This document shows positions 1,165-28,396 of a stretch of 64,000 nt of DNA, piece after piece. This DNA comes from Salinimicrobium sediminilitoris (GTDB lineage: Bacteria > Bacteroidota > Bacteroidia > Flavobacteriales > Flavobacteriaceae), in the NCBI RefSeq assembly GCF_020866905.1, contig NZ_JAIVCC010000002.1, positions 434,001 through 498,000 of the forward strand, in the 5' to 3' direction. Each line of letters starts with the position of its first letter. Within the stretch, counting starts at the first letter, position 1. Below the pieces are notes generated by a model. That model was not told the DNA's origin. It saw only the letters and a list, made by a program, of their open reading frames with translations, and searched no databases. A program made the translations under genes and the position numbers.

Positions 1165-2022
1165 ATGAAAAATGTGATTATTCCAATGGATTTTTCATCA
1201 TCATCTACCCGGGTGATCCTTTATGCACTTGGTTTGATGAGAGAAGAGGAATGCACATTCTTCATGTTAAACCTTCCTGAAGCTGCCGCTTATAGCTCCA
1301 CAAAATTTGAGGATAAAGAATGGATCAACTGTATCCAGAATGAAGCCGTTCAAAGACTTCAAAAACTTCAGAGAGAAATTACAAAAGTCTACCCTTCTAA
1401 AAAGATCAAAATACAACTTCTTTTTCCGGGAAAAGTCCTGGAAGAGCAGGTAGATCCAGATTCCTTAATTATTGGAAGTACAGCCGTTTTGAAAAAAACA
1501 TTGCAGTTGCCTTATGACTTCTTCCGAAATTTAAAATCACCTCTACTTTTTATTCCGAAGGAGCAGAAGTTCAGCCTTCCCAAAAAGATCCTGATTACAC
1601 TGGAACCTCATGTGGAAATAAGACAGGCCACTCTAACTCCCTTTAAAAAGCTTTTTGGAAACCATGACCTAAATGTGGAGATTATCAAAATGTATTCGGG
1701 CAAAATTGATCATTCCCTGGTAGCGAGAGATGAATATGAACTAAATCAATTGTTTGAAGTTTATCATCCTAAAGTTGGTACATTGATTACAGGTCACGTT
1801 GCCAGCTATTTAGGCAGAACTATGCAGAAGGACAATTATGATTTGCATATAGTCCCTCTTTCTCAATCAATTTTTCCTGCCGGGCCAACTACTTCCCAAA
1901 TAACTAATGCAATCGCCGACAGTAAAATTCCGGTAATGATTTTACAGGGAACCCCACAAGAGCAGCAAATACCATTGAGAAGCCCCGGAAGAACCAGGAA
2001 TAAAACTGCTATAGTTCAATGA
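1165..2022 (+). CDS. Divergent tandem universal stress protein (UspA family)
   Basis: 285 residues, the length of the two-domain Usp proteins found again at 22.2-24.8 kb. The opening MKNVIIPMDFSSSSTRVILYALGL matches the Usp start (I-P-T-D-F-S, then an Ala-rich helix). The ATP-binding loop is degenerate: where active Usps have G-2x-G-9x-G-S/T this one has GSTAVLKKTLQLPYDF, lacking the glycines, so nucleotide binding is doubtful. It overlaps the next small membrane-protein gene by 4 nt (ATGA), suggesting translational coupling. Usp proteins are cytoplasmic stress and energy-limitation factors; the exact role here is unknown. Confidence 0.75.
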   Translation: MKNVIIPMDFSSSSTRVILYALGLMREEECTFFMLNLPEAAAYSSTKFEDKEWINCIQNEAVQRLQKLQREITKVYPSKKIKIQLLFPGKVLEEQVDPDSLIIGSTAVLKKTLQLPYDFFRNLKSPLLFIPKEQKFSLPKKILITLEPHVEIRQATLTPFKKLFGNHDLNVEIIKMYSGKIDHSLVARDEYELNQLFEVYHPKVGTLITGHVASYLGRTMQKDNYDLHIVPLSQSIFPAGPTTSQITNAIADSKIPVMILQGTPQEQQIPLRSPGRTRNKTAIVQ

Positions 2023-2339
2023 AAATTTTAATCTCCCTCTTATTATTATTACACGCTATTCTACACCTTATGGGGCTCGTCAAAGCTTTTTACACAGACT
2101 TCCTTCCCACAATTTCCAGAAAGATAAGCATTTCTGAAGGGGCTCTTTGGTTCGCATGCGCTGTACTTCTCATTTTAGCTAATGTTTATTTCCTCAACGA
2201 TTACCCCTTCTGGCCTGTTTTATCTATAAGTGGAGCTTTGCTTTCACAGTTTTTGATTACCCTTAATTGGGAAGATGCAAAATATGGCACAATAATAAAC
2301 CTGTTGATCCTGGCGGTGAGTTTTCCCGCTTTAACTTAA
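2019..2339 (+). CDS. Small four-helix membrane protein, unknown function
   Basis: 106 residues, almost entirely hydrophobic. Four probable membrane segments can be seen: about residues 3-22, 39-58, 65-82 and 88-104. It starts inside the stop codon of the Usp gene (ATGA overlap), so the two are probably made together. I recognise no family. The short loops and lack of conserved polar residues argue against an enzyme. Confidence 0.6.
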   Translation: MKILISLLLLLHAILHLMGLVKAFYTDFLPTISRKISISEGALWFACAVLLILANVYFLNDYPFWPVLSISGALLSQFLITLNWEDAKYGTIINLLILAVSFPALT

Positions 2340-2468
2340 TTATTGGGTAAGGGCTTCAAAGGTTTTTCCCATTGAAAGATCCCCGGTTTGATATCTTGAA
2401 GACCTTTCCATACGCATAAATTTCATAAATGTTTACTGAAGCATTCGATCTTCACAATTTAAAAGAGT

Positions 2469-3158
2469 TTAATTTTTTGCATTATGATCAATGATCCTAC
2501 CGTCTTCCATTTTTATAATTCGATCTGTACGCTTTGCAAAATCACTATCATGGGTAACTACCAATAAAGATAGCCCCTGTTCATCACTTAATTGCCTGAA
2601 AATCCTAAGCACATTTTCTGAATTATGACTGTCGAGATTCCCGGTGGGTTCATCCCCCATGATTATTGCAGGATCATTTATAAGAGCTCTGGCGATAGCA
2701 ACCCGCTGCTTCTCGCCACCCGAAATTTTAGATGCTTTTTTATCCGCGAGATTTTCAATACCGAGCATATCAAGTTTGTAGAGGGCATTTTTCCTAATCT
2801 CTTCAATAGATCGTTCTCCAAGCTTGCGGGCAGGTAGCATCACGTTTTCAAGCACAGTAAATTCGGGCAGGAGGTAATGGAACTGGAATACAAAGCCAAT
2901 ATGCTTATTTCTTACATAAGCCAGCTTATTGGGATGTTGACCTGTAAGCAAATCGCCGTTAAGGAAAAGCTTCCCCTCATAATCTCTGTCCATTGTTGAC
3001 AAGATATAGAGAAGAGTAGATTTTCCGCAGCCCGACTTTCCCATGATGGAAACAAATTCTCCGGAATTTACGCTGAAATTTATATCCTTAAGCACATGAA
3101 ATTCCACAGGTTTCCAAAAATGTTTGTCGATATGACTGGCTTCGAGAATTGGCTTCAT
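2469..3158 (-). CDS. ABC transporter ATP-binding protein (MacB/LolD type)
   Basis: 229 residues. Walker A GKSGCGKST (about 41-49), Q-loop in FQFHYLLPEF, signature SGGEKQR, Walker B IIMGDEPTGNLD and the switch histidine in VVTHDSD are all intact, so it should hydrolyse ATP. The sequence between Q-loop and signature is that of the LolD/MacB/FtsE group, which powers FtsX-like permeases. It is the last gene of an adaptor-permease-ATPase operon, 2 nt after the permease. The substrate cannot be read from the sequence. Confidence 0.92.
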   Translation of the reverse strand: MKPILEASHIDKHFWKPVEFHVLKDINFSVNSGEFVSIMGKSGCGKSTLLYILSTMDRDYEGKLFLNGDLLTGQHPNKLAYVRNKHIGFVFQFHYLLPEFTVLENVMLPARKLGERSIEEIRKNALYKLDMLGIENLADKKASKISGGEKQRVAIARALINDPAIIMGDEPTGNLDSHNSENVLRIFRQLSDEQGLSLLVVTHDSDFAKRTDRIIKMEDGRIIDHNAKN

Positions 3159-3160
3159 AA

Positions 3161-4423
3161 CTATATACCTGTTATGATCTTCACAGGATCGATTTTTTTG
3201 GCTTTACGCGAAGGGAGATAGCCCGCAAGAAAGGTAAAAAGCATTGCGAAACTAATCCCAAATATGTAAAAGCGGATATCAAAATTCACAGGATAGGTTT
3301 CTACTGTTGGCAGTGCCTCGGTATTAAAGGGAGTATGGCTAATTAAAACCGAAAGGCCATACCCAAGCAGAAGTCCTAAGATACCACCTAAAAATCCTAT
3401 AATTAACGCCTGACTCATAAAAATAAGCTGTACATCCCTGCCCGAAAAACCAGTTGCCTTCAAAATAGCGATATCGTTCATCTTTTCATAGATCAACATG
3501 TTGAGAATGTTGTAGATCCCGAAACCGGCCACTACCAGCAGCGTAATTGAAACGGCATATGTAATAAGATTTCGTACAGTGGTTCCCGTTTCAAACTGGG
3601 CATTGGCTGTTCTTACGTCAATTGCAGTAAGATCGAACTGCTCCTCAACAAATTCTGCTATGGAAACTGCCTCTTCAATATCATTCAGCTTTACATTTAT
3701 ATCTGTAATATAGCTCCCGGGTTCTCCAAGGATACGTTGGACTGTGTGAAGATTTGTAAAGCTTTGAACATTATCTATTTCTACGATCCCGCTTTGATAT
3801 ATCCCCACGATCTTTAATGGGAAAACATCCCCTTTTACAGTGGTTACCTGCACGCGATCTCCTACTTCCAAAGACAATTTATCTGCCACCCCTGCCCCAA
3901 GGATAATTCCGTTGGAGGTGTTATGAAGATCCCTGGCGCTTCCCTCTACTATATAATCGCCAAGATTAAAAAGCTCTTCTTCTTTCAAGATCTCTACCCC
4001 CAAAAGATTCCCTCCCAGCTCTATAGAACCTGAAATGTAAAAAACCTGTGTCTTCACCTGCGGAATAGCTCCTCTTACCCTGGGATCCTCCTCAAGGTAC
4101 TCCATTAATGGTTGTGCATTATGGATCTTCTTTTGAGTAAGCTGGGGCCTAACTGAATGTATTACCGTTAAGGATTCATCCATACCCTCATAAAGTGTTG
4201 CAGGCTGGTCCCGGGTAGGCTTGATCTCATTGAAGATATGAACATGAGGAGTTTGATTTAAGATGAGATCATCCAGCATCTGGTTAAGGCCCGTCATAAA
4301 GCTTACAAGAGTAATATATGAACCTATCCCAAAAGTAACCCCGAGAGCAGCAATAAGGGTTTGCCGCATTTTGCTCACCAGGTGTGTTTTTGCAATGCTC
4401 AATATTACCCGGTAGTTTCTCAT
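3161..4423 (-). CDS. ABC transporter permease, FtsX/MacB/DevC family
   Basis: 420 residues with the topology of FtsX-like permeases: one N-terminal membrane helix (about 20-42), a large periplasmic domain (about 45-285), then three C-terminal helices. The C-terminal stretch with NDIAILKATGFSGRDVQLIF is the conserved cytoplasmic coupling region of MacB/LolC proteins, and the ending PSRKAKKIDPVKIITG is typical. The start overlaps the stop of the upstream adaptor gene by 4 nt. With an HlyD-like adaptor it resembles DevBCA/MacAB exporters, which move lipids, peptides or small molecules out of the inner membrane. Confidence 0.88.
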   Translation of the reverse strand: MRNYRVILSIAKTHLVSKMRQTLIAALGVTFGIGSYITLVSFMTGLNQMLDDLILNQTPHVHIFNEIKPTRDQPATLYEGMDESLTVIHSVRPQLTQKKIHNAQPLMEYLEEDPRVRGAIPQVKTQVFYISGSIELGGNLLGVEILKEEELFNLGDYIVEGSARDLHNTSNGIILGAGVADKLSLEVGDRVQVTTVKGDVFPLKIVGIYQSGIVEIDNVQSFTNLHTVQRILGEPGSYITDINVKLNDIEEAVSIAEFVEEQFDLTAIDVRTANAQFETGTTVRNLITYAVSITLLVVAGFGIYNILNMLIYEKMNDIAILKATGFSGRDVQLIFMSQALIIGFLGGILGLLLGYGLSVLISHTPFNTEALPTVETYPVNFDIRFYIFGISFAMLFTFLAGYLPSRKAKKIDPVKIITGI

Positions 4424-5505
4424 TCTTCTGGTGGAAATAATTTGGTGTTTGCTGTAATTCCTTCTTTAACCTCAACGGAGTCAATACTCTCCAGGCCGGT
4501 GACAACCTCAACAATCCCGTCTTCTGTTCTTACACGGTTATTTCCAATTAAAAATTTCCGCGGAATAACTAGTGCTTTTTCCCGTTGTGCCACCACAATG
4601 TTTCCTTCTCCAGAAAGTCCCGGCAAAAGTACTTCGGGTGCATCTTCAAAGAGAGCTTCCACTAAAAAAGTCTGATTCCTTTCATCCTTCTTTGGATATA
4701 TCTTGTAAACTTCAGCCTTAAATATCTTTTTAGGATAGGCATCAAGGGTTAAATAAACTGTTAATCCCGGCCTTACTCTTACGATATCCTCTTCATCCAC
4801 CAGCATCTCGACAAGAAACCTGTCTGCACTGCCTAAAGTTACCAGTGGCTGGGAGGCATTGACTATCTCCCCCGGCTCTTTATGAATGGCATATACTTTT
4901 CCGTTGATTTTACTGGTAACAGAAAAATCGGTAGTATTGATTAAAGAGGATCTATAAGTATTCTCTGCCTGTTTTAGCTGGGTTTCCAACTCGTTTTGAG
5001 TGCGTTGGTATTTGTTTTGAAGTATCTCAAGGGCAGCTTCAGATTTTTCATAGCCCAGTTTTCTGCTTTCCAGGGTTGACCGGGAACCAATTTGCTGCTC
5101 CCAAAGCCGCTCCTGCCTTCTATAGTTGACGGAGTCATTGAGAAACTGAAGTTTTGCAGTTTTAATTTCTTCCTCCAGGCCCGAAAGGATTGCCGCGCCT
5201 CCCTCAAAATTTTCCCGTGCCAGCTGCAGGGCCAAAAATGCGTTTTTTGAAGCCAGTTCGGGATTGGTTTTAATAATCTGTACCAGTACATCGCCTTTTT
5301 GCACCACATCCCCCTCCTCCACCAGGTTCTCATCCAGAAGACCATTTACCACTGCAAATGCCTGATAAAGACTATCGGGCTGCACAGTGACCGAAGCATA
5401 AACAGCTTCGGTGATCGAGGTCTCCACCGGAAATACCGAAGCTTCCTGCTGGTCACAGGAAATAAGGCTAAAAAGAGCTACAGCCGGTAAAAAATATTTC
5501 AACAT
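4420..5505 (-). CDS. HlyD/MacA-type periplasmic adaptor lipoprotein
   Basis: 361 residues. A lipoprotein signal is visible (hydrophobic stretch, then lipobox LISC with Cys17). Two half-lipoyl regions (EEGDVVQKGDVLVQI and INGKVYAIHKEPGEIV) flank a long coiled-coil hairpin (about 85-185) rich in Glu, Lys and Gln, followed by a beta-barrel domain. This is the architecture of membrane-fusion adaptors that link an inner-membrane ABC transporter to an outer-membrane channel. It is the first gene of the exporter operon. No TolC homologue is present in the window, so the outer-membrane partner is encoded elsewhere. Confidence 0.88.
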   Translation of the reverse strand: MLKYFLPAVALFSLISCDQQEASVFPVETSITEAVYASVTVQPDSLYQAFAVVNGLLDENLVEEGDVVQKGDVLVQIIKTNPELASKNAFLALQLARENFEGGAAILSGLEEEIKTAKLQFLNDSVNYRRQERLWEQQIGSRSTLESRKLGYEKSEAALEILQNKYQRTQNELETQLKQAENTYRSSLINTTDFSVTSKINGKVYAIHKEPGEIVNASQPLVTLGSADRFLVEMLVDEEDIVRVRPGLTVYLTLDAYPKKIFKAEVYKIYPKKDERNQTFLVEALFEDAPEVLLPGLSGEGNIVVAQREKALVIPRKFLIGNNRVRTEDGIVEVVTGLESIDSVEVKEGITANTKLFPPEE

Positions 5506-5552: not shown

Positions 5553-5564
5553 TGATATTCATCA
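5553..5564. promoter_or_regulatory. FNR-box-like palindrome TGAT-N4-ATCA upstream of the exporter operon
   Basis: TGATATTCATCA lies 48-60 nt upstream of the adaptor start, in the 78-nt gap after the GH65 gene. It has the half-site spacing of CRP/FNR-family operators. A short palindrome like this can arise by chance. Confidence 0.3.
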
Positions 5565-5583: not shown

Positions 5584-8001
5584 TTACTGAGCTTCTTTCT
5601 TCCGGTAGGTAAAACTTCTCTCCTCCCCTTTTCTCATGACAAACTCCTCTTCATTTACCACTATTTTTATAAGGTCCTGCCAGCCACCATGGCTTTTAAG
5701 GAATAGAACATCCTGTGTGAGTTTTACCTCGAGCCAATGCCGCCGGTATCTACATCTAAAACTTATTTCTTCAACATTTTGAGGTAATCCCGGATTAAAA
5801 TAAAGGGCTTCTTTTTTAAATTCTATTCCCGTGTAGCAGCGGTGAATGAGATCTACAGTGCCCGCCATGGCTCCCATATGTACACCTTCGGCTGTAGTCC
5901 CTCCCTGCACGTCTGAAAAATCGCTAATAAGAGCTTTTTTGAAATCATGCCAGGATTGTTCCCGGTGAGACCTGGCATAAACCCAGGAGTAAACCACTTT
6001 ACTTAAGGTAGAACCATGAGAGGTGATCGCCTCGTAATAATCAATATTTGCGGGAATTTGCTCTTTCGGGTCAAAGTGGTAATTCATAAGATCAAAGAGT
6101 TCTTTAAGCTCTTCGGAAGAAAACAGAAAAAAAAGCATTAATACATCAGGTTGTTTTACCGCCTTGTAATTTTTGACATCATCGCCCTCCTTCTCAAGGA
6201 TACGGTCCAGTCTCATGGTCTCCCCATATTTTTCGTGGTACCGTTTCCAGTCTAACTCCTTCAGCTTATCAAAACCTTCAAATTGTTCAATTATCTTTCC
6301 ATCCTCCAGAAAAGGAATGAACATGTTTTCACAAATGTTCTGCCAGCGGGAAAGTTCTTCCTCATTTATTTCCATTAACCTCAACAGGTCACTTGCTCTG
6401 CGATCATTAAGTTTTTGAATGGCGAGGAGCGCGTGCTTTAGCGTCCACACCGTCATGATATTTGTATACGCATTGTTTCGAAGACCGGGCTCTGAAGAAT
6501 TGGGATAAGAGGTATGATACTCATCTGGGCCCACCACTTCATGTATCTCATATTTTCCTCTCTCCTCATTGTACTTCACTTTGCTGGCCCAGAATTTTGC
6601 AATATCGAGCAGCAGTTCTGCACCATAAAAGGCCAGGAACTGCAGGTCACCGCTCACCTGGAAATACTGCCACACATTATAGGCTATAGCTGAATTAACA
6701 TGCCGCTGCAAATGAGTATTATCTGGCAACCAGTTTCCTGATTCGGGGTTAAGGTGAATAATTTGAGTTTCTTCCCTCCCGTTGCTCCCACTCTGCCAGG
6801 GAAACATAGCCCCTTTGTAGCCTTCGCTACTGGCTGCAAACCGTGCTTCGGGTAATCTCCTGTAGCGGTACATAAGCAAGGCCCGGGTGAGTTCGGGAAT
6901 AGTAATATTGTAAAAAGGAAAAATAAAAAGCTCATCCCAGAATATATGTCCGCGATAGGCTTCCCCATGCCATCCTCTTGCGGGTATACCTACATCTTCA
7001 TCAATGGTTTTCAAGCTGAAGGTTTGAAAAAGGTGAAAAATGTGCAGCCTTAACAACAATTGGTCATTATTCCCATCAGCTTTTAAAAGGATATCACTCT
7101 GCCCCCAAAGTTCTTCCCAGGCCATTTTGTGAAACCGCAGAAGCTCCCCAAATCCCGGGATTCTTGTTACCAGCTTCTTTGCCTCGCACAGAGGATCGGC
7201 AATGGCCATGTCCCTGGAAGTATACACTGCTACCAGCTTTTCAACAGTTATGGCCTTGTTTTCCCGGGCTTCAAAAATGAGTTCCTGGGCCACGTAATCC
7301 TTTTCGATGATACTTCTCCTTTCCACGGAAGGCTCATAAAGTTCAAAACTTACCCCGGTTTTACAGGCCTGGACCATCACAATTTCAGACTGGCTGCTTC
7401 TCACCTTAAGATACATACCGTCTTCATCAAAACTACCCGTATCAAGCGGAACAAGATGTTGTCCATTAAGGTCTCTATACCTTGCAACACCTGCATTTGA
7501 CACTTTACCGTTCAAAGCTGAATGAATGGTTATTGAACCTTCCCAGTTTAGAGGTTTTAATTCCCACTCGATTGCTGCCAGATGCATTTTTGACATACTT
7601 ACCACCCTACGACTGCTAAGCTGTGTTTCCCTGCCCTCCTTGTCCCGAAATTTCATTCTACGCTCCAGGATCGCTTCCCGAAGGTTAAGAGACTGTTCAA
7701 ACTCAAGGATCTCTACAGCATCTATGTTAAACCAGTCGCCATTTTCCAGCCTAAACCTTAGCAGCGTCCAGTCGGGCCAGTTCACCAGGTCCTCATTTTC
7801 AATGACCCTGCCAGCTATGGTGGTTTCGAGACGGTTGTAACCCCCGGCGAGGTAAGTGCCGGGATAATGATTTTCTCCCGCTACTGAACCCTCTGCAGCT
7901 GCCCTGGTAGCGAAATAACCGTTCCCGAGGGTGCAAAGCGATTCGCGCAGCAACTCCTCCTGGGGGGAATAATTATCATATTTTAAGATCCAGTCTTTCA
8001 T
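5584..8001 (-). CDS. Glycoside hydrolase family 65 (disaccharide phosphorylase/hydrolase)
   Basis: 805 residues, full length for GH65. The (alpha/alpha)6 barrel motif GWHGEAYRGHIFWDELF (about residues 350-370) and the catalytic acid motif VVGPDEYH are present, the glutamate falling at about residue 494, equivalent to the general acid of maltose phosphorylase. GH65 enzymes cleave alpha-glucosidic disaccharides (maltose, trehalose, kojibiose, nigerose), usually with phosphate, giving beta-glucose 1-phosphate. The gene starts 10 nt after a fused HAD/trehalose-phosphatase gene. The beta-phosphoglucomutase-like half of that neighbour would use beta-glucose 1-phosphate, so a phosphorylase acting on trehalose or its 6-phosphate is the favoured inference; the substrate is not proven. 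Confidence 0.9.
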   Translation of the reverse strand: MKDWILKYDNYSPQEELLRESLCTLGNGYFATRAAAEGSVAGENHYPGTYLAGGYNRLETTIAGRVIENEDLVNWPDWTLLRFRLENGDWFNIDAVEILEFEQSLNLREAILERRMKFRDKEGRETQLSSRRVVSMSKMHLAAIEWELKPLNWEGSITIHSALNGKVSNAGVARYRDLNGQHLVPLDTGSFDEDGMYLKVRSSQSEIVMVQACKTGVSFELYEPSVERRSIIEKDYVAQELIFEARENKAITVEKLVAVYTSRDMAIADPLCEAKKLVTRIPGFGELLRFHKMAWEELWGQSDILLKADGNNDQLLLRLHIFHLFQTFSLKTIDEDVGIPARGWHGEAYRGHIFWDELFIFPFYNITIPELTRALLMYRYRRLPEARFAASSEGYKGAMFPWQSGSNGREETQIIHLNPESGNWLPDNTHLQRHVNSAIAYNVWQYFQVSGDLQFLAFYGAELLLDIAKFWASKVKYNEERGKYEIHEVVGPDEYHTSYPNSSEPGLRNNAYTNIMTVWTLKHALLAIQKLNDRRASDLLRLMEINEEELSRWQNICENMFIPFLEDGKIIEQFEGFDKLKELDWKRYHEKYGETMRLDRILEKEGDDVKNYKAVKQPDVLMLFFLFSSEELKELFDLMNYHFDPKEQIPANIDYYEAITSHGSTLSKVVYSWVYARSHREQSWHDFKKALISDFSDVQGGTTAEGVHMGAMAGTVDLIHRCYTGIEFKKEALYFNPGLPQNVEEISFRCRYRRHWLEVKLTQDVLFLKSHGGWQDLIKIVVNEEEFVMRKGEERSFTYRKKEAQ

Positions 8002-8011: not shown

Positions 8012-9535
8012 TCAGATTTTGATAAGTTCTCTAAAAAAGGTTTTTACTTCCTCCAGGTCCTGCAGAGAATAATCGGCGAAGGTGGCCTGGCTGTGTTCTC
8101 CCACAAGAATCCCCAGCCCATGATCCACTTCTCTAAAAGCATCTTCATCTGTGACATCGTCACCCACATAAATCGAAAAAGAATTCTCCTGACTTGAAAG
8201 TTCCCGCTTCAGGAATTCAACTGCTTTTCCTTTGTGCCAGTCAATATTGGGTCGTATTTCAATCACTTTTTTCCCCCCTGCTGCGGTAAGTCCGGGGTAA
8301 TCTTTCAGCACCCCATTCACCCTGTCATGCACTTCCTGCTCGAATTCGGGCTTTACCTGGCGATAGTGAATAGCAAGGGTAAATTTCTTACGTTCAAAAT
8401 CCACTCCTTTAATATTCTGAAGCTGCTCCCTAAGGATAGGTTCAATCTCGTCAAAAAGCGGAAGGACTTTTTGAGCTTCTTCATTTTCTTTAAAAAAACC
8501 GTCTGGGCCGGAGATCTCATAACCATGACTCCCGGCATAGTAAAGCCCCTGAAGGTTGACCCGCTGCTTAACATCGGCCATTCCCCGCCCGCTTATCACC
8601 GCCACCGGATAAACTTCTGCCAATTCCCTCACCAGTTCCCTCATTTCTTCAGAAATAGCTGCGTCTGCATGATGTTCTACTATAGGTGCAAGAGTTCCGT
8701 CAAAGTCGAGAAACAGCAAAGGTTTATTCTGCAGGTATTGTTGCTTTATCTCCGGAAAATTCTCAATTGCCGAGGGTAGTTTTTTTGGTTCCCGACCTTT
8801 CTTAAACTCCAGATCTAATTCCTGAAGATTCTTCACTGCCAAATGCGCCCCATGTTCCAGTAATTCCTCTTTGGAAGAAGCATTTTCAATTCCTATTACC
8901 AACCTGAAATTTCCTTTTCTACCTGCTTCTACTCCGGCCTGTGCATCTTCAATGATCATGGCGAGATCGGGTTTTATACCCAACTCTTTTACTGCTTCAA
9001 GGAAAATATCGGGCGCCGGTTTCTCCGGAATGTTCCTTTCTGCGGAAGTAATGCCATCTACTACAGTGTCAAAAAGGCCATTTTCAAGACCCGCTATTTT
9101 TAGGATCTCCCTGCAGTTCCTACTGGAAGAAATGAGTCCGATTTTAAGCCCCTGTTTTTTCCAGTCTCTTAACTGCTGAACGTTTTTTTCATAAATATCA
9201 ACTCCTTCTTCATCGATCACCTTCCTGAAGTTTTGGTTTTTAAGATTCCCAAGCCCACAGACAGTTTGGGATCCCGCGGCATCTTCGGGGGTGCCAAAAG
9301 GGAGTTCCAGCCCTCTGGAAACAAGAAAATTATTTACTCCGTCGTAGCGCGGAATCCCATCTATGTGCCGGGCATAATCTTTTTCAGAAAAAGAAAGAAA
9401 TTCTTTTTTCCCCTCTTTTTTCCGCCGCTCATTATAATCATTAAATGTTTTCCTCCAGGCTTTTTCATGTTGCCGCGCGGTACTTGTGATCACGCCGTCA
9501 AGATCTGTGATTATAGCTTTTAGGTAGTATTTCAT
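8012..9535 (-). CDS. Fusion of beta-phosphoglucomutase-like HAD and trehalose-6-phosphate phosphatase (OtsB)
   Basis: 507 residues in two HAD units. Residues 1-230 form a beta-PGM-like HAD: ITDLDGVITST gives the nucleophile and acid Asp11/Asp13, and later come ISSSRN and IEDAQAGVEAG. Residues about 265-507 form a trehalose-phosphatase: LLFLDFDGTLAPI, VISGRG, and YVGDDVTDEDAF with the Mg-binding aspartates. Both catalytic sets look intact. Known M. tuberculosis OtsB1 (Rv2006) joins HAD, TPP and GH65 in one chain; here the GH65 part is the next gene, 10 nt downstream. No trehalose-phosphate synthase (OtsA) lies in the window. Likely role: trehalose/alpha-glucoside turnover under stress (inference). 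Confidence 0.88.
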   Translation of the reverse strand: MKYYLKAIITDLDGVITSTARQHEKAWRKTFNDYNERRKKEGKKEFLSFSEKDYARHIDGIPRYDGVNNFLVSRGLELPFGTPEDAAGSQTVCGLGNLKNQNFRKVIDEEGVDIYEKNVQQLRDWKKQGLKIGLISSSRNCREILKIAGLENGLFDTVVDGITSAERNIPEKPAPDIFLEAVKELGIKPDLAMIIEDAQAGVEAGRKGNFRLVIGIENASSKEELLEHGAHLAVKNLQELDLEFKKGREPKKLPSAIENFPEIKQQYLQNKPLLFLDFDGTLAPIVEHHADAAISEEMRELVRELAEVYPVAVISGRGMADVKQRVNLQGLYYAGSHGYEISGPDGFFKENEEAQKVLPLFDEIEPILREQLQNIKGVDFERKKFTLAIHYRQVKPEFEQEVHDRVNGVLKDYPGLTAAGGKKVIEIRPNIDWHKGKAVEFLKRELSSQENSFSIYVGDDVTDEDAFREVDHGLGILVGEHSQATFADYSLQDLEEVKTFFRELIKI

Positions 9536-17416: not shown

Positions 17417-17417
17417 T

Positions 17418-18182: not shown

Positions 18183-18188
18183 AAAAAG

Positions 18189-19187: not shown

Positions 19188-19188
19188 A

Positions 19189-19805: not shown

Positions 19806-19832
19806 TCTAATCGTTTTTTGGTTCATAATTTC

Positions 19833-21468: not shown

Positions 21469-21482
21469 ATGACAATTCTCAT
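21469..21482. promoter_or_regulatory. Near-palindrome ATGAC-N4-CTCAT upstream of hsp20
   Basis: ATGACAATTCTCAT differs by one base from the perfect ATGAC-N4-GTCAT upstream of the first island Usp gene. It lies about 63 nt before the Hsp20 ATG. Confidence 0.35.
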
Positions 21483-21544
21483 TCTATTTAGAGCTAATGC
21501 TCTGTAAATTAGAAAGAAAAATTACTAACAAAAAACCTAGAGTT

Positions 21545-22012
21545 ATGTCATTAGTAACCACAAAAAAGCGCAGGACTCCAATGTTGAGTAATGCCTTTAT
21601 CAACGATCCTTTCTTTTCAAATTTCTTTGACCGTAGCGGAATGATGAAGAACTTCCTTAAAACAAACGGAGATTTGGATTTTAGTCCGGCAATGAACGTA
21701 AAAGAAAAAGAAAAAGAATTTGAAGTAGAGCTTGCCGCACCCGGTCTTAAAAAAGATGATTTCAAGATCACTCTTGACAACGGTATTCTTACTGTTTCAG
21801 CTGAAAAAGAAGAAAAAAAAGAAGAAGAAAAAGAAGGTTATGTGAGCAGGGAGTTTAGTTATAATTCCTTCTCAAGATCTGTAAGCATTCCGGAATCTGT
21901 AGATGAGGATAAAGATGTTTCTGCCCGTTACGAAGATGGAGTTCTTAAGCTTAAATTGAACAAAAGAGAAGGTTCGGAAGCCAAAAAGCCAAAAACCATT
22001 AAGGTTTCCTAA
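21545..22012 (+). CDS. Small heat-shock protein (Hsp20/alpha-crystallin)
   Basis: 155 residues from ATG 21545 (MSLVTTKKRRTPM), preferred over an ATG 16 codons upstream because the latter adds an atypical tail. The alpha-crystallin domain spans about 50-145, including FEVELAAPGLKKDDFKI and the dimer-groove motif GVLKLKL. The C-terminal I-x-V motif (TIKVS) used for oligomer assembly is present. These chaperones bind unfolding proteins without ATP. An internal Glu/Lys-rich loop is unusually long. In M. tuberculosis the Hsp20 HspX is a DosR target beside Usp and PfkB genes, which this neighbourhood resembles. Confidence 0.93.
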   Translation: MSLVTTKKRRTPMLSNAFINDPFFSNFFDRSGMMKNFLKTNGDLDFSPAMNVKEKEKEFEVELAAPGLKKDDFKITLDNGILTVSAEKEEKKEEEKEGYVSREFSYNSFSRSVSIPESVDEDKDVSARYEDGVLKLKLNKREGSEAKKPKTIKVS

Positions 22013-22146: not shown

Positions 22147-22160
22147 ATGACACCCGTCAT
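22147..22160. promoter_or_regulatory. Perfect palindrome ATGAC-N4-GTCAT upstream of the Usp operon
   Basis: ATGACACCCGTCAT lies 46 nt before the start of the first Usp gene, a promoter-proximal place. The half-site length and spacing are those of CRP/FNR-family operators. The adjacent receiver-CRP protein is the natural candidate to bind it. Confidence 0.45.
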
Positions 22161-22206: not shown

Positions 22207-23055
22207 ATGAGAAAGATAATTATTCCTACCGACTTTTCAGAAAATGCATTTAATGCATTAAGATATGCTGCAGAACTCTTTAAATATGAGAGAAGCGAAT
22301 TTTATGTGCTGCACGCTTATGCCGATGAAGTTTACAATTTTGAAGGAGTAATTACACAGGATTTTCTGGAGGAATATAAAGCAACCGTAAAAGAAAAATG
22401 TAGCCGGGAGCTGGAGAACGTTATCTCCCGGATAAAAGAATTGTATTCCAACCCCAAACATTCCTTTCATCCCATCCCGGCTTTCGGACTTTTAATAGAT
22501 GAAGTGAATGATCTTGCCGAAAAAGAAAATGCCGATCTAATTATTACTTCCACCCGTGGGGCAACCAATGACCGGAAGCTAACTTTTGGCAGCAACACCC
22601 TGCAAATCATTAAATATGTGCAATGTCCTGTATTAAGTATCCCCGAAAATTACCAATTTTCAGATCCCAAACGGATTTTGTTTCCCACAAATTACCTTCT
22701 GCCCTATCAACGCCGAGAACTCAAATTAGTGGGTGGAATAGCACGCTCTTTTTGTTCAGAGATTCACATGCTGTATGTTTCTCGCTTTGCCGAGGAGACA
22801 TTAAGACAGAGAGACAATAAAGAAGCCATATTGCAGCAATTCTATGATTTAAAGTTGCATGATCATCATGAAAAGGAAATGGAAAAAACACAGGCCATTG
22901 AAAAAATGATTGATAACCTCCACATTGACCTGCTTATCCTGGTTAATTCCCGCCACAGCTATCTTGAAAACATTTTATATACCTCAACAATCGATAAAAT
23001 TGGGCTTCATCCAAAAATCCCCTTTCTGGTACTCCAAAATTTTTATCGTCTTTAA
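22207..23055 (+). CDS. Tandem universal stress protein (first of three)
   Basis: 282 residues, two Usp-like domains (about 1-145 and 155-282). The start MRKIIIPTDFSENAFNALRYA is canonical. The ATP loop of the first domain reads STRGATNDRKLTFGSNT: the first glycine of G-2x-G-9x-G-S/T is replaced by Ser, so ATP binding may be weaker than in the next two copies. The second domain has lost the motif. It heads a run of five genes reaching the beta-CASP nuclease, with an 11-nt gap to the next Usp. Confidence 0.87.
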   Translation: MRKIIIPTDFSENAFNALRYAAELFKYERSEFYVLHAYADEVYNFEGVITQDFLEEYKATVKEKCSRELENVISRIKELYSNPKHSFHPIPAFGLLIDEVNDLAEKENADLIITSTRGATNDRKLTFGSNTLQIIKYVQCPVLSIPENYQFSDPKRILFPTNYLLPYQRRELKLVGGIARSFCSEIHMLYVSRFAEETLRQRDNKEAILQQFYDLKLHDHHEKEMEKTQAIEKMIDNLHIDLLILVNSRHSYLENILYTSTIDKIGLHPKIPFLVLQNFYRL

Positions 23056-23066: not shown

Positions 23067-23912
23067 ATGAAAAAGATCCTGTTGCCAACCGACTTTTCAG
23101 AAAATGCATACAATGCAGCGAAATACGCCGTTCAGCTTTTCAATGGGGAGGAGTGTACTTTTTACTTACTCAACACCTACACCCCGGTGCTCTATGACAA
23201 CGAGTACCTGGTCTACAGTGCTACTCAACCCACTCTGACTGAGATCTACCAAAACAAATCCATGGAAGGACTGGAAAGGGTGCGAAGAAGGATCAAGCGA
23301 AATTTCAAGAATGAAAAACATCACTTTGAGAAGATTTCCTCCTTCAATCTTTTAAATGATGAAATAAAAGACGTGGTTTTAGAGAAAGAAATAGATCTTA
23401 TTGTGATGGGAACGAAAGGAGCTACTGGAGCTCAAGAGATTCTTTTTGGCACCCATACGGTGCACGCAATAAAAAAAGCCCGCTGCCCATTAATGGCAAT
23501 TCCGGCACATTATGATTACAAGGCTCCCAGAGAAATACTTTTTCCAACAGATTATGAAGTGGAAATCCCTAAGCTCCTGAACATTTTAAAGGAGATTGCA
23601 TTAAGTCACTCCTCTAAGGTGCATATTCTTCATGTCTATTTTGGAGTAAACCTTTCCTCTACCCAAACCAGTAGAAAAAAAGCTTTGGGAAGAGCATTTA
23701 AAGATATTGGTCATCACTTTTACAGCATAACCGAAAAAAGTGTCACCAGGGCTATTTATGATTTTCAGGAAGAAAATGAAATTGACATGCTGGTGATGAT
23801 AAATAATAAGCATTCTTTCTTTGAGAATCTTTTATTTACACCTGTTGTAAACGAAATAGGTTTTAACGTTAAAGTACCATTCCTGGTCATTCCGTCTAAA
23901 AAAAGGAAATAA
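23067..23912 (+). CDS. Tandem universal stress protein (second of three)
   Basis: 281 residues. The start MKKILLPTDFSENAYNAAKYA and a complete ATP motif GTKGATGAQEILFGT, matching G-2x-G-9x-G-T, predict an ATP-binding first domain. The second domain (about 155-281) keeps the fold pattern (PREILFPTDYEVEIPKLL) but not the glycine motif. Its stop and the next gene's start share a base (TAATG), indicating translational coupling. It is a paralogue of both flanking genes, so the trio arose by duplication. Confidence 0.88.
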   Translation: MKKILLPTDFSENAYNAAKYAVQLFNGEECTFYLLNTYTPVLYDNEYLVYSATQPTLTEIYQNKSMEGLERVRRRIKRNFKNEKHHFEKISSFNLLNDEIKDVVLEKEIDLIVMGTKGATGAQEILFGTHTVHAIKKARCPLMAIPAHYDYKAPREILFPTDYEVEIPKLLNILKEIALSHSSKVHILHVYFGVNLSSTQTSRKKALGRAFKDIGHHFYSITEKSVTRAIYDFQEENEIDMLVMINNKHSFFENLLFTPVVNEIGFNVKVPFLVIPSKKRK

Positions 23913-24763
23913 TGAAAAAAGTGCTTTTGCCAACAGATTTTTCTGTCAATTCCCTGAATGCGGCAAGATATGCCCTGGATATGTACAAGGAAGAAAAAAT
24001 GGATTTTATCTTAATTCATGCATACAGGGTTTTCGATTACCATGAAAAAAGTCAGTTATCTGCTACACCGGGTAAAGCTGTACTGGAAAAAGCCCGACAG
24101 GAAGCAAATTCTAAGCTTAATAAGGTAGTCGAAGAATTAAAAATCACTGCGGGAAAGGACCATTCTTTTGAAATAGCAGCTCACAATTTATTACTTACAG
24201 ATGCCATTTTAAAAGAATTACGAAAAAGGAAAATAGAGTTGATCATTATAGGAAATCAGGGCCATACAGGAGCAAAAGAAGTTATCTATGGAACAAATAC
24301 TCTAAATATTATGGAGGAGATTGAAAATTGTCCGGTATTATCGGTCCCTTCCAATATGGTATTTCAACCTCCAAATGAAATTGTTCTTGCCAACAGCTTC
24401 AAAGCAGAACTAACGCCCGATGATCTTGATTTTCTGATTTCCCTGGCAACAAAATTTAAAGCTGCTCTAAGGATCCTTCACATAGCCGAAGAAGGTGGCC
24501 TCAACAGGTCTCAGCATCATAACAGGAAATTGCTTAGTGAAAAGCTTGAGGACGTAAAGCACTCCTTTCATTCCCTGGAATATCTTAGTGTACCTCTGGG
24601 CATCTATTCCTTTTTAGAAAGCCGGGGAAGTGGATTAGTCGCATTTATCAATAAAAAACATACGTTTTTAGAAAACCTGCTCCTAAACCCATTATATAAG
24701 AATTTGGCGCACTATTCAAAAGTACCGGTTTTGGTACTCCACCAGCCTCCAAGGGCAGATTAA
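23912..24763 (+). CDS. Tandem universal stress protein (third of three)
   Basis: 283 residues. The start MKKVLLPTDFSVNSLNAARYA and the complete motif GNQGHTGAKEVIYGT predict ATP binding in domain one. The second domain is degenerate and ends in VPVLVLHQPPRAD. It is followed after 10 nt by the ATP-cone nuclease-like gene, so the Usp proteins and the nuclease are probably made from one message. Confidence 0.88.
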   Translation: MKKVLLPTDFSVNSLNAARYALDMYKEEKMDFILIHAYRVFDYHEKSQLSATPGKAVLEKARQEANSKLNKVVEELKITAGKDHSFEIAAHNLLLTDAILKELRKRKIELIIIGNQGHTGAKEVIYGTNTLNIMEEIENCPVLSVPSNMVFQPPNEIVLANSFKAELTPDDLDFLISLATKFKAALRILHIAEEGGLNRSQHHNRKLLSEKLEDVKHSFHSLEYLSVPLGIYSFLESRGSGLVAFINKKHTFLENLLLNPLYKNLAHYSKVPVLVLHQPPRAD

Positions 24764-24773: not shown

Positions 24774-25619
24774 ATGAAAGTTATTACCGCCTCGGGGGAA
24801 AGATCAGAGTTTTCGGAAACAAAAGTGGCATCTTCCCTAAGAAGAGCCGGTGCACATGAGCCCGTTATCGATGATATTCTAAAAAGCCTGCGCGGGCGAT
24901 TACATCCCGATATTTCCACTAAAGAAATATACAAACAGGCTTTTGATCTCCTGCGAAAGCAGGACGGCCTCACTGCCTCCCGTTTTAAACTTAAAAAAGC
25001 AATTTACGAACTGGGGCCTACAGGATTCCCTTTTGAGAAATTTGTAGCTGCCATTTTTGAAAATAGCGGTTATAAAGTAGAAGTTGGGAAAATTCTCCAG
25101 GGTTCATGTGTTAGTCATGAAGTAGATGTAGTAGCCGGGCTAAAGGACCTCAAGATGTTCATGGAATGTAAATTCCATAGTGAACAGGGAAAAAAATGCG
25201 ATGTAAAGGTTCCGCTTTATATCAACTCCCGTTTTTTGGATCTGGAAAGTTTTCATCTAAAAATGCACAAAAATGGAGGAATTCGCCATGAGGGTTGGGT
25301 TGTTACAAATACCAGGTTTACACAGGATGCTATCACCTATGGTAAATGTGTAGGTTTAAAACTTTTAAGCTGGGACTATCCTAAAGGGAATGCGTTAAAA
25401 GAAAGAATAGACAAATTAGGGCTTTACCCCATTACCGTTTCCACTCTTTTGTCTGCCAGGGAGAAACAATTTCTCCTAAGCAGGGATGTAGTGCTGTGCA
25501 GACAATTAATAAAAGACGACTTTTTTCTCGACCAGCTGGAGATAAAAGAAAATAGAAAGAGAAGAATTCTTCGGGAAATGGAAGAACTAGTGGTGCCCTT
25601 AAAAAAAGCAAATGGCTGA
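24774..25619 (+). CDS. ATP-cone plus PD-(D/E)xK restriction-endonuclease-like protein
   Basis: 281 residues. Residues 1-90 resemble an ATP-cone, the nucleotide-sensing domain of ribonucleotide reductases and NrdR: VITASGERSEFSETKVASSLRRAGA and the following helices. Residues about 95-205 look like an Mrr/RecB-type nuclease: FEKFVAAIFENSGYKVEVG, then the catalytic HEVDVVAG (Asp) and MFMECKFH (Glu-x-Lys). The last 75 residues are helical. A nuclease controlled by adenine-nucleotide level is the obvious inference. It lies between the three Usp genes and the beta-CASP gene, whose start overlaps its end by 8 nt. No methylase is nearby, so it is not part of a classic restriction-modification pair. 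Confidence 0.75.
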   Translation: MKVITASGERSEFSETKVASSLRRAGAHEPVIDDILKSLRGRLHPDISTKEIYKQAFDLLRKQDGLTASRFKLKKAIYELGPTGFPFEKFVAAIFENSGYKVEVGKILQGSCVSHEVDVVAGLKDLKMFMECKFHSEQGKKCDVKVPLYINSRFLDLESFHLKMHKNGGIRHEGWVVTNTRFTQDAITYGKCVGLKLLSWDYPKGNALKERIDKLGLYPITVSTLLSAREKQFLLSRDVVLCRQLIKDDFFLDQLEIKENRKRRILREMEELVVPLKKANG

Positions 25620-26985
25620 AAAAGTAAATATCCGTTTTCTAGGTGCCGCAGGTACAGTAACAGGCTCAAAGTTCCTGCTTGAGACTCCCTGGATGAATAT
25701 CCTCATTGATTGCGGATTATTTCAGGGGCTCAAGGAATTAAGAGAACTCAATTGGAAACCTTTTCCTTTTCCTCCTGAAAAAATTGACCTGGTACTTCTC
25801 ACTCATGGTCACCTGGACCACACCGGTTACCTGCCAAAGTTAGTCAAGGGTGGCTTTAGCCGGGAAATTCTGGGCACCTCCCCCACGCTGGCTATAGCCG
25901 AAATCATCCTTACAGACAGTGCTAAAATTCAGCAGGAAGATGCAAAAAGGGCTAATGAAGAACATTTTTCAATACATGAGCCGGCATTGCCACTTTATAC
26001 CGAAGAAGATGTTGAAGAAACTGTAAAATTATTCAAATCTGTTAGGACAGATGAATGGATGGAGGTCTCAGAAAAGATTAAATTTCGTTTCCTTCGGAAC
26101 GGGCACATCCTGGGAGCTACGTTCATCGAATTGGATATAAACGGTAAGATCTTTGTATTTTCAGGAGATATTGGTCGAAACTCAGACACGCTTCTGGAAG
26201 CCCCACACAAACCGGGGCATGCAGACTTCCTGTTTCTGGAGAGCACCTATGGGGATAGAATACATCCGGAGGAAGACGTTGATGAGATCCTGGATTCCTG
26301 CATCACAAAAACTATTGAAAATAATGGAACCTTAATTATCCCTAGTTTTGCAGTAGAGCGTCTTCAAACTTTGATGTACAGGATCTATCTACTTTATCAA
26401 AAGAACCAGAACCTAACAATTCCCGTTTATATTGACAGTCCCATGGGCAATGAGGTGCTTAAGGTCTTTAGCAGTTTTATGTCCTGGCACAAATTAAATA
26501 CCGAAGAATTTAAAAAAATGAAAAGATTCTTCAGGATCATTACACAATATAAGGACACCTGGAAGGTAATTGACGATCCTCAACCCAAAGTTGTTATAGC
26601 GGGTAGCGGGATGGTCACTGGAGGCAGGGTTTTAACTTATTTGAGATTTCACCTTAAAGATCCCAATACCACCATTCTTTTGGTTGGTTTCCAGGCCGAA
26701 GGAACAAGAGGAAGACAACTTCAGGAAGGGGTGGCCGATGTAAAGATCTTTGGAAATTACTATGAGGTAAAAGCCGCAGTAAAGAATATAAACAGCCTTT
26801 CTGCTCATGCAGATCAACATGAATTACTGGACTGGTTAGTCGACCTCGACAATAACCCGGATCGGATTTTCCTTATCCACGGCGAGAAAAAAGCTTCAGA
26901 TGTTCTTAGGGTTAAAATTAAAGACCGTTACGGCTGGCATGCCGAGATTCCACACCTGGGAGATACGGTAACGGTAGAAGTTTAA
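25612..26985 (+). CDS. Beta-CASP metallo-beta-lactamase RNase-like protein
   Basis: 457 residues. The metallo-beta-lactamase metal motif THGHLDHTGYLP (HxHxDH) and the later metal aspartate SGDIGRN are intact. The beta-CASP domain includes motif A (FLESTYGDR), motif B (SGMVTGGRVLTYL) and motif C (SAHADQHELLDW). This layout is that of archaeal/bacterial CPSF-like RNA nucleases rather than RNase J, which carries an extra C-terminal domain. It overlaps the ATP-cone gene by 8 nt and ends the five-gene operon. RNA is the likely substrate; DNA is less likely. Confidence 0.9.
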   Translation: MAEKVNIRFLGAAGTVTGSKFLLETPWMNILIDCGLFQGLKELRELNWKPFPFPPEKIDLVLLTHGHLDHTGYLPKLVKGGFSREILGTSPTLAIAEIILTDSAKIQQEDAKRANEEHFSIHEPALPLYTEEDVEETVKLFKSVRTDEWMEVSEKIKFRFLRNGHILGATFIELDINGKIFVFSGDIGRNSDTLLEAPHKPGHADFLFLESTYGDRIHPEEDVDEILDSCITKTIENNGTLIIPSFAVERLQTLMYRIYLLYQKNQNLTIPVYIDSPMGNEVLKVFSSFMSWHKLNTEEFKKMKRFFRIITQYKDTWKVIDDPQPKVVIAGSGMVTGGRVLTYLRFHLKDPNTTILLVGFQAEGTRGRQLQEGVADVKIFGNYYEVKAAVKNINSLSAHADQHELLDWLVDLDNNPDRIFLIHGEKKASDVLRVKIKDRYGWHAEIPHLGDTVTVEV

Positions 26986-27017: not shown

Positions 27018-27060
27018 CTTGTTTGGACATTTTTAGATGCCCGGATTTCTTTAGAATTAA

Positions 27061-27437: not shown

Positions 27438-27451
27438 CTGACATTTGTCAG
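27438..27451. promoter_or_regulatory. Perfect palindrome CTGAC-N4-GTCAG upstream of the coiled-coil pair
   Basis: CTGACATTTGTCAG has the same TGAC-N4-GTCA core as the site before the Usp operon and lies 50 nt before the start at 27502. Confidence 0.45.
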
Positions 27452-27501
27452 TTTGATGAACAGTTTTTATTCTTACCTTAATAACTTAAATACAGTAGAT
27501 T

Positions 27502-27933
27502 ATGAGCCGGAACACATCCAGAAGTTTTTCCGCAAATGAAAAGGACATAGACCGCCTGTTAAAAGAAAACAGCAGGTGGAAAGAAAGATTAGCCTACTTC
27601 AATGAGGAAATCAACTTCTTAAACCTGTACCTGGGTGCAGATATCTTTCAAAAGAATATACTAAATCTATATGAGCGGCTTCAGCTTTTCTATGATGCCC
27701 TGCAAAATTTTAAACAGGAGAACCTGGAGCTTACCAGGGAAGTTCATAACCACCGGTATGACATTGAGGGAATACTAGAATGCGAGGATATAAGCTGTGA
27801 AGTCTTTTACCACGATGAACATTTAAAACTCGAACGAAGGATCCTGGATTTTGCCCACAAATTCAGGGAATTCAAACTGGAAATTTTTTCCTATACCGGG
27901 CCCCTGTTACGCCGAACCAGTAAGGAGCATTAA
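27502..27933 (+). CDS. Coiled-coil protein of unknown function, paralogue A
   Basis: 143 residues, highly charged and helical with no Walker, HTH or signal peptide. The core ENSRWKERLAYFNEEINFL is followed by long heptad-like helices rich in Leu, Glu and Lys. The next gene has the same W-K-x-x-L-x-F/Y pattern and length, so the two are likely diverged duplicates. It lies downstream of a TGAC-N4-GTCA palindrome, inside the stress island. Function unknown; a helical scaffold or regulatory partner is possible. Confidence 0.6.
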   Translation: MSRNTSRSFSANEKDIDRLLKENSRWKERLAYFNEEINFLNLYLGADIFQKNILNLYERLQLFYDALQNFKQENLELTREVHNHRYDIEGILECEDISCEVFYHDEHLKLERRILDFAHKFREFKLEIFSYTGPLLRRTSKEH

Positions 27934-27952
27934 CAAGTATAATTTTTTTGCC

Positions 27953-28396
27953 ATGAAAAATAAAGCACATAATTACAGGTACATCGAGTGGAAAACACCC
28001 GACGAAATGCATTTCTCCTCTTTACAGTGGAAATCTGAACTCAGCTTCATTAAAGATGAACATCGCTTTTTTGAAGATATGCTTAAAGAATACACTTTGC
28101 CCATAATTGAATCCCAACTTTTTAACCGGGTGAAGGAACTTATTGACCAGTTAGGTCTTTCGGTTAAAGAACTAAAGGTTTTAGAAAAAAGGGTTTCCGA
28201 ACATATTAACAGGCTTCGCAGCTTGATTGAAAGCCTGGATGAACCAAGAGAAGGACGTGTATATCGCAAAGAACATAAGGAAATCCTTAATGATGTCAAT
28301 CACTTTTCCAGACAATACAAACGACTTAAAAAGGAAATTTTTGAAATCGTTAGTCAAGCAATGAAACAACAAAAACAGAAAAGGCTACTGGCCTAA
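27953..28396 (+). CDS. Coiled-coil protein of unknown function, paralogue B
   Basis: 147 residues from ATG 27953; the open frame runs further upstream but that part overlaps paralogue A out of frame. Helical and charged throughout: LQWKSELSFIKDEHRFFEDM near residues 24-43 aligns with the corresponding W-K-x-x-L stretch of paralogue A. It ends in a Lys/Gln-rich tail. The 19-nt gap to paralogue A suggests one transcript. No enzyme motif seen. Confidence 0.6.
   Translation: MKNKAHNYRYIEWKTPDEMHFSSLQWKSELSFIKDEHRFFEDMLKEYTLPIIESQLFNRVKELIDQLGLSVKELKVLEKRVSEHINRLRSLIESLDEPREGRVYRKEHKEILNDVNHFSRQYKRLKKEIFEIVSQAMKQQKQKRLLA

Follow-up and report, generated by a model that had tools for sequence, protein, structure and literature searches.

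The DosR regulator of Mycobacterium tuberculosis consists of a receiver domain and a LuxR/NarL-type helix-turn-helix (HTH), and DosS and DosT are GAF-domain haem kinases. FixJ likewise has a LuxR-type HTH as its output; the FNR/FixK-type site approximates TTGAT-N4-ATCAA, and FNR proper requires four Cys residues for its oxygen-labile FeS cluster. The nearest described kind of island that we found is the low-oxygen-activated (lxa) locus of Burkholderia cenocepacia, which comprises 50 genes, including those for six universal stress proteins (Usps), an alpha-crystallin, a metallo-beta-lactamase (MBL) protein and a phosphofructokinase (PMC6127331). The lxa locus is tied to anoxic persistence (PMC6127331, PMC3759415), and its authors propose a FixK/FNR-type regulator and compare lxa with DosR (PMC6127331). 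In Myxococcus xanthus, the haem-dependent kinase pathway NmpRSTU controls cbb3 oxidase, HemN, hemerythrin and a Usp by means of a protoglobin sensor and an NtrC-like regulator that acts with sigma-54 at the site GCGCA-N5-TGCGC; one target was shown to rise in hypoxia (PMC11841059). Here, we describe a 27-kb gene island of Salinimicrobium sediminilitoris (Flavobacteriaceae, Bacteroidota), in which Usps, an Hsp20 and several metabolic genes accompany a regulator that fuses a receiver domain to a Crp-type output (receiver-CRP). The island lies in a stretch of 64,000 nucleotides (nt), hereafter the window (assembly GCF_020866905.1, contig NZ_JAIVCC010000002.1, positions 434,001 to 498,000, forward strand).

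Aerobic flavobacteria are common in seas and sediments, and their response to oxygen loss is little described in the literature searched; no account of this gene set in Flavobacteriaceae was found among the titles and abstract openings of open-licence PMC papers. An earlier note on this DNA had taken all 27 kb for one DosR-like island serving low oxygen or energy limitation. The island is instead a composite of a family-wide core and add-ons, the right part (about 20.3-28.4 kb) being a conserved module of Flavobacteriaceae. From its sequence, this core probably serves as a low-oxygen or energy-limitation module under the receiver-CRP and a FixL-like PAS kinase, with a dispersed FNR/FixK-type regulon; the sequence thus supports the proposed role for the core, but not a single 27-kb unit.

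Conservation of the core and of the whole island

The family sample comprised 149 Flavobacteriaceae genomes, and counts include the window's own genome. Receiver-CRP (E<=1e-40) was found in 66 genomes and the gene for an ATP-cone nuclease in 62; because at most 13 receiver-CRP candidates were scored per genome, some absences of the regulator may be false. Both genes occur in 55 genomes, and in 36 of these they lie within 15 kb of each other, against a chance expectation of about 0.73 genomes (assuming a 3.5 Mb genome and random placement). The two genes share a strand in 34 of the 36. Of the 35 other linked genomes, 33 contributed a region for reading, the two excluded being G069 and G129, in which the strands are opposite; three genomes with an unlinked ATP-cone gene contributed one each as well. 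The genes most often run from the PAS kinase through the receiver-CRP, two to eight Usps, the ATP-cone nuclease and the beta-CASP RNase to small proteins of the h1/h2 type. The beta-CASP gene, which was not a selection criterion, is the next open reading frame (ORF) after the ATP-cone gene in 36/36 regions, and in 32 of them it lies no more than 200 nt away on the same strand. Core members are the receiver-CRP, Usps, the ATP-cone/Mrr nuclease, the beta-CASP RNase, h1/h2 and often Hsp20. Near the core, subsets of the regions carry S30AE ribosome-hibernation proteins (9), thioredoxins (20) or 2-hydroxyacid dehydrogenases (9), one member of each having been checked in Pfam. Phylum-wide, the ATP-cone gene was present in 49 of 296 genomes.

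Conservation of the island as a whole was tested with the gene for a fusion of a HAD domain and a trehalose-phosphatase (HAD-TPP) as anchor. Matches were found in 3/149 family genomes (two full length) and in 8/12 genus genomes (five full length), the own genome included in both; the remaining genus matches comprise one TPP part alone and two in which TPP lies on a PfkB-TPP frame. The 27 kb as a conserved unit was rejected on these counts, and the add-on also lacks an operator in the window. Thus, to the question raised by the earlier note, whether the genes are scattered in most relatives, the answer differs by part: the core is linked, whereas the metabolic genes are rare outside the genus. 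The metabolic operon is the most DosR-like part, yet it is mostly confined to Salinimicrobium. Recurrence of the core order across the family and the tight packing of the add-on genes (gaps of 48, 9 and 10 nt between PfkB, P-ATPase, HAD-TPP and GH65) nevertheless mean that the grouping exceeds chance.

Palindrome, candidate sensor and predicted regulon

A palindrome scan covered 312 non-convergent intergenic stretches (49 kb) from 35 loci, among them the window and a second cluster of the own genome on contig C10. TGAT-N4-ATCA, flanked by A or C, occurs 102 times against 2.35 in single-base shuffles, and in 33 of the 35 loci. In 33 relatives, DNA outside ORFs (84 kb) contains 115 copies and the ORFs themselves (571 kb) contain 25; of the former copies, 93 lie in 34 kb of island intergenic DNA and 22 in 50 kb of flank, a sixfold difference in density. 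Among the 109 sites that have a downstream gene, 59 sit 50-70 nt before its start codon. The 115 sites serve mainly Usp genes (50), followed by Hsp20 (10), the kinase (9), TerB-like/DUF302 (9), h1/h2 (8), WG-repeat (7) and other genes (11), with none for 6.

In the window, the relaxed form TGAY-N4-RTCA has six hits, two coding and four intergenic. All four intergenic sites fall in the first 28.4 kb, which by the gene list has 2.5 kb of intergenic sequence; the remainder of the window, with 4 kb of such sequence, has none. Together with a weaker fifth site (16576), their centres stand 53-60 nt before HlyD, a flavin reductase, MlaE, Usp1 and h1; in the sites before Usp1 and h1, the half-sites are of the TGAC type. 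Five of the six genus relatives read there (regions L216, L217, L218, L220 and L104) retain the Usp1 site, and these five also retain the one before h1. The HlyD site is retained at the same place in L034, L035, L142 and L143, and plain sites precede Hsp20 in L218, L220, L041 and L104.

The PAS kinase is present in 30 of the 33 linked regions (it was not found in those of G007, G031 and G037) and stands directly upstream of the regulator in 29. Linked kinases have the architecture PAS, HisKA and HATPase_c (two scanned, 31 aligned). The PAS domain of the own-genome kinase gave 14 PDB matches at E<1e-3, of which 13 are FixL or DosP, counting two entries, named yddU and haem PAS sensor, that we take to be FixL or DosP proteins. 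With a relative's full-length kinase, the best PDB matches were ordinary kinase catalytic domains, and FixL and DosP were the main PAS matches among the best 60. The haem His and an Arg of FixL have known roles there; in 30 kinases having the domain, the residue aligned with the former is His in 28 and the Arg is retained in 22. One such kinase was found in the host genome, on C10, and a close homologue occurs in 12/12 genomes of the genus. It precedes a second receiver-CRP, 49% identical to that of the window, in a cluster that also holds a Usp, a ScdA/hemerythrin protein and NorB (a Pfam call, with no NCBIfam match at the limit used). The window's receiver-CRP would share this kinase.

The own genome as a whole contains 77 copies of MTGAYN4RTCAK, whereas the reversed control has 14; for ATGAYN4RTCAT, the counts are 33 and 6. 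Among the 57 of the 77 sites that were read in context, 37 are intergenic, compared with about 10% intergenic DNA in the window. Genes bearing the motif are dispersed along the chromosome. By Pfam and NCBIfam, those behind sites include hemN, H+-pyrophosphatase, a phosphoribosyltransferase, NqrA, a NarK-family transporter, IOR alpha, hemerythrin, glutamyl-tRNA reductase, malic enzyme, an Rrf2 regulator and a macro-domain protein. Two sites accompany a 2-oxoacid:ferredoxin oxidoreductase (POR) with a divergent ferredoxin, and another precedes a copper P-ATPase whose neighbours include a CcoN-FixO fusion and a NirK-like copper oxidase/cytochrome c; the names NirK and CcoI are our own reading. 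HemN lies above the NCBIfam cut-off, NarK and IOR alpha lie below theirs, and IOR, the copper ATPase and some other regulon genes are cut by the end of the stretch read. Five of the ten regulon proteins scanned matched no family or a general one only. The genome has 17 distinct Usp-matching genes, six with a site 44-59 nt before the start (in two cases after the start codon was moved by eye), and the Usp beside NorB is preceded by the motif.

Two further loci on contig C16 were recorded. In one (L221:829-4838), COX1 (CcoN-like) and FixO domains share a 729-residue protein, whose gene is divergent from that of the copper-oxidase/cytochrome c protein, with an operator-like site between them. The other (L203; C16:100065-103065) has a 197-residue Crp-family gene beside a gene that by eye encodes a probable thioredoxin, as well as a 96-residue protein with two operator-like sites upstream; in relatives, thioredoxins are often found near the core.

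Across the 149 genomes, the motif/control ratio has a median of 2.52 with receiver-CRP (n=66) and 1.69 without (n=83; Mann-Whitney p 1.6e-4, in a comparison that ignores relatedness). A one-to-one tie between motif and receiver-CRP was rejected: the trend is significant and not a rule. Membership of FNR proper was also rejected, as the receiver-CRP has three Cys residues, its paralogue one and the other five HTH_Crp_2 proteins of the host 0-3, against the four needed.

Gene inventory, add-ons and nuclease pair

Every gene named by the earlier note was found in the window by Pfam or ORF reading (Table 1), namely Hsp20, PfkB, a type II P-ATPase, HAD-TPP, GH65, a flavin reductase and an azurin within the 27 kb. 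Its four Usps were also recovered, three by PF00582 (E-values 3e-20 to 8e-27) and the fourth by hhalign only; the latter has no match in the Pfam scan of window proteins, lies at the far edge, and its role in the island is doubtful. To that list can be added the ATP-cone/Mrr_cat and beta-CASP genes, both of which turned out to be central, h1/h2, MlaE/F/D, a HlyD/FtsX/ABC exporter, an M20 peptidase and a DUF1611-like protein. The island proteins are 90-99% identical to those of Salinimicrobium sp. TH3, the nearest named genome. Homologues of the receiver-CRP begin near residue 18, so its true start is probably 20399, and the start of h2 was picked by eye (27851 in the ORF list). Between beta-CASP and h1, a plus-strand ORF (26999-27342) is probably spurious, and the minus strand there resembles, by eye, a small Thr/Glu-rich lipoprotein. 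Directly after the island (28725-30583) come an SRAP peptidase, a HipA-like kinase and a small ORF, an order retained in L216, L217, L218 and L220.

Table 1. Features of the island in the window, with two fused frames from relatives
Feature	Position	Strand	Evidence or remark
Usp, degenerate	1165..2022	+	hhalign to Usp1-3, probability 98.2, E 5e-14
HlyD/FtsX/ABC exporter operon	2469-5505	-	
HlyD-type subunit, first gene of exporter operon	4420..5505	-	PF13437; operator-like site upstream
Operator-like site TGAT-N4-ATCA	5553..5564		centre 53.5 nt before HlyD
GH65 family enzyme, phosphorylase-like	5584..8001	-	PF03632
HAD (beta-phosphoglucomutase-like) + trehalose-phosphatase fusion (HAD-TPP)	8012..9535	-	
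Type II cation P-ATPase	9545..12355	-	family-level match; below equivalog cut-offs
PfkB-family hexose kinase, first gene of metabolic add-on	12404..13351	-	
Flavin reductase-like, heads operon with M20 peptidase and DUF1611-like protein	15804..16415	-	Pfam
Operator-like site TGAC-N4-ATCA	16469..16480		centre 59.5 nt before flavin reductase
Weaker operator-like site	16576..16587		weight matrix only; centre 55.5 nt before MlaE
MlaE, ABC ATPase, MlaD (MlaE/F/D)	16637..19187	+	
Azurin/plastocyanin-type copper protein, neighbour in genus	19239..19826	-	
Receiver-CRP: receiver + cNMP_binding + HTH_Crp_2	20348..21439	+	Pfam
Weak operator-like site before Hsp20	21470..21481		
Hsp20	21497..22012	+	Pfam
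Operator-like site TGAC-N4-GTCA	22148..22159		centre 53.5 nt before Usp1
Usp1	22207..23055	+	PF00582
Usp2	23067..23912	+	PF00582
Usp3	23912..24763	+	PF00582
ATP-cone + Mrr-type nuclease (Mrr_cat)	24774..25619	+	both Pfam matches weak, E 1e-5 to 7e-5
Beta-CASP metallo-beta-lactamase RNase	25612..26985	+	
Operator-like site TGAC-N4-GTCA	27439..27450		centre 57.5 nt before h1
h1, small protein conserved with core	27502..27933	+	no Pfam match
h2, small protein related to h1	27953..28396	+	
PfkB-TPP single frame, in place of HAD-TPP fusion	L143:14953-16677 (G152)		
PfkB-TPP single frame, in place of HAD-TPP fusion	L041 from ~9596 (Salinimicrobium nanhaiense)		

Besides the window, the regions of seven Salinimicrobium genomes were read. 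In six of them (G154, G156, G158, G152, G150 and G007), a distance of 4 to about 11 kb, containing the Mla and azurin genes, separates PfkB from the receiver-CRP and three Usps; in G149, the receiver-CRP and a few Usp matches stand beside PfkB and TPP. Azurin and Mla genes thus adjoin the core in Salinimicrobium, and they, like the exporter and the metabolic add-on, are outside the family-wide core; azurin clusters in only three of the regions read and the window taken together (L104, L143 and the window). The Mla genes are neighbours and only putative members of the island. No ATP-cone or beta-CASP match was found between Usp3 and h1 in G156 (L217), where the Hsp20 match is only partial; this genome suggests that the nuclease pair can be lost from the core.

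The add-on itself suggests a route for sugar use. The closest matches of HAD-TPP are beta-phosphoglucomutases for its HAD half and trehalose-phosphate phosphatases for its TPP half, while the nearest PDB entries of GH65 include one named trehalose-6-phosphate hydrolase as well as kojibiose phosphorylase; an OtsA-family gene occurs in 12/12 genus genomes. The PfkB and TPP activities are tied together by G152 and S. nanhaiense (G150), where a single open frame of about 575 residues encodes both. The add-on could convert trehalose phosphate into glycolytic sugar phosphates, with flux predicted to run from trehalose phosphate to trehalose, then to beta-glucose-1-phosphate and glucose, on to glucose-6-phosphate and finally fructose bisphosphate. 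The combination of HAD-TPP, GH65 and PfkB recurs in nine loci of Pontibacter, where the 21 kb examined contained no core match. A Croceicoccus plasmid has the combination too, and its neighbours there are DUF302, a PAS protein, a cNMP-binding protein and glycolytic genes.

The nuclease pair has a wider setting. The closest PDB match of the beta-CASP RNase is ribonuclease TTHA0252; in the ATP-cone nuclease, Asp118, Glu131 and Lys133 are invariant in 20/20 aligned sequences, as would be expected of a PD-(D/E)xK site. Among 72,556 plasmid records, the ATP-cone/MBL pair was found in two only, from Criblamydia and Pontibacter, and adjoins thymidine-phosphorylase-family and PRPP-synthetase genes in both. 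The Criblamydia sequanensis plasmid (NZ_LK031773.1; L224) carries in a row genes for a P-ATPase, phosphoketolase, glycogen phosphorylase, the ATP-cone protein, the MBL protein, a thymidine-phosphorylase-family enzyme, PRPP synthetase and acetate kinase. The pair's position beside nucleoside and energy genes on plasmids of distant phyla, and the presence of S30AE near the core in nine relatives, prompt a speculation that we hold with little confidence: the two nucleases may be the heart of an RNA-to-energy programme, in which an adenylate shift under oxygen loss would cause RNA to be dismantled by the RNase and a nuclease gated by adenylates, with nucleosides feeding phosphorylases, pentose-phosphate use and substrate-level ATP, and trehalose use being an addition of Salinimicrobium.

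Interpretation and comparison with known systems

A survival role under low oxygen is suggested by the recurrent regulator and the accompanying candidate DNA sites, which are similar to low-oxygen switches known from other bacteria. In the predicted circuit, the PAS histidine kinase would phosphorylate the receiver-CRP proteins when oxygen falls or nitric oxide (NO) rises, and receiver-CRP would bind to TGAY-N4-RTCA sites placed about 55 nt ahead of start codons. Binding would switch on the Usps, Hsp20, the ATP-cone nuclease and the beta-CASP RNase as a co-expressed set, and the same switch would induce the dispersed regulon, including cbb3-oxidase maturation, HemN, NarK, NO reductase and ferredoxin oxidoreductases.

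Several observations weigh against this circuit. Of the 57 sites read in context, 20 fall in coding sequence, and the genes behind several of the intergenic sites have no plain tie to oxygen; in the window, strict TGAT-N4-ATCA is not enriched (2 occurrences against 1.76 expected). Only a weak site precedes Hsp20 in the window, and Hsp20 itself is present in only 15 of the 33 linked regions. L041 has no Usp1 site, and motif and weight-matrix scans of the window revealed no operator before azurin or PfkB; a site lies about 93 nt upstream of PfkB in one relative among those read, G007 (L142). In the window, no kinase was read beside the receiver-CRP, and two of the 30 kinases with the PAS domain lack the aligned His, which in itself is no proof of haem. 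A motif excess of at least 30 marks 41/66 genomes with receiver-CRP and also 26/83 in which none was detected, and the host has seven HTH_Crp_2 proteins; another regulator may therefore use or share the site. The operator is likely shared among regulators, and the candidate binder is not fixed to receiver-CRP. Carried further, these facts would favour an arrangement that we consider possible though somewhat doubtful, in which the site belongs to one of five stand-alone Crp/Fnr proteins (such a site occurs 130 nt upstream of one Crp gene, of 203 residues). Receiver-CRP would then be a side regulator acting through a different site, and the genes of the island would simply be one group of targets in a classical FNR-like regulon. 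Yet the sixfold density of sites in island intergenic DNA, the higher motif ratio in genomes with receiver-CRP and the nine cases in which the site precedes the kinase/regulator genes themselves argue against this arrangement.

The gene families would also suit a general stress, stationary-phase or energy island whose kinase senses redox or another cue, as Usps, Hsp20 and nucleases answer many stresses. Usp and Hsp20 are indeed general stress families, haem binding by the kinase is only putative, and S30AE genes lie near the core in nine regions; however, the same motif precedes hemN, narK, the cbb3 locus and the Usp beside NorB, and the PAS domain is nearest FixL/DosP, so that we regard this explanation as unlikely. 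That unrelated neighbours merely happen to sit together in Salinimicrobium is highly improbable: the add-on, Mla, azurin and exporter genes do fall outside the family-wide core, but the linkage of the core far exceeds its chance expectation and a common operator-like site recurs at a fixed distance. A low-oxygen or energy-limitation module under receiver-CRP thus remains our preferred account. It would give these flavobacteria a predicted circuit of a FixL-like kinase, a fused receiver-CRP, an operator at a near-fixed distance before start codons and a regulon.

How the island compares with described systems depends on the part considered. Usps, Hsp20/alpha-crystallin, an MBL protein and a phosphofructokinase are classes that, by name, also occur in lxa; lxa belongs to a beta-proteobacterium, and the available part of its account names no receiver-CRP or PAS kinase. 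The Nmp pathway has a similar target set, whereas its regulator, site and sensor differ. Compared with lxa and Nmp, the island is alike in components and in its probable function, and it differs in phylum and in how its regulator is built. DosR is matched in content by Usps, Hsp20, PfkB, a P-ATPase, HAD-TPP and GH65; of this content, the family-wide core holds only Usp, and Hsp20 in 15/33 regions, the DosR-like metabolic genes being a separable add-on. As the earlier note had proposed, receiver-CRP stands where M. tuberculosis has DosR. Membership of the DosR system itself was rejected, since the output of the island regulator (the only one considered) is HTH_Crp_2 rather than of the NarL/FixJ type, the kinases carry PAS rather than GAF-haem domains, and the site is FNR-like. 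The FixL-FixJ-FixK, FNR and Anr systems share with the island a FixL-like PAS kinase, a Crp/Fnr-type output, a TGAT-N4-ATCA-type site and targets such as cbb3, hemN and denitrification genes, here assigned by motif position. FixLJ membership was rejected on the output, HTH_Crp_2 instead of a LuxR-type HTH; in this member of the Bacteroidota, receiver and Crp/Fnr output are fused in one protein. The features of an FNR/FixK-type regulon are present, namely an HTH_Crp_2 output, a TTGAT-N4-ATCAA-like candidate site and predicted cbb3, hemN and denitrification targets. These comparisons suggest that a DosR/lxa-like gene set exists in a further phylum under another regulator, and that the ATP-cone nuclease/beta-CASP RNase pair is a constant part of such islands. 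We infer that the island would work like DosR, lxa or FixLJ-FixK, while being, by the features tested, neither DosR nor FixLJ.

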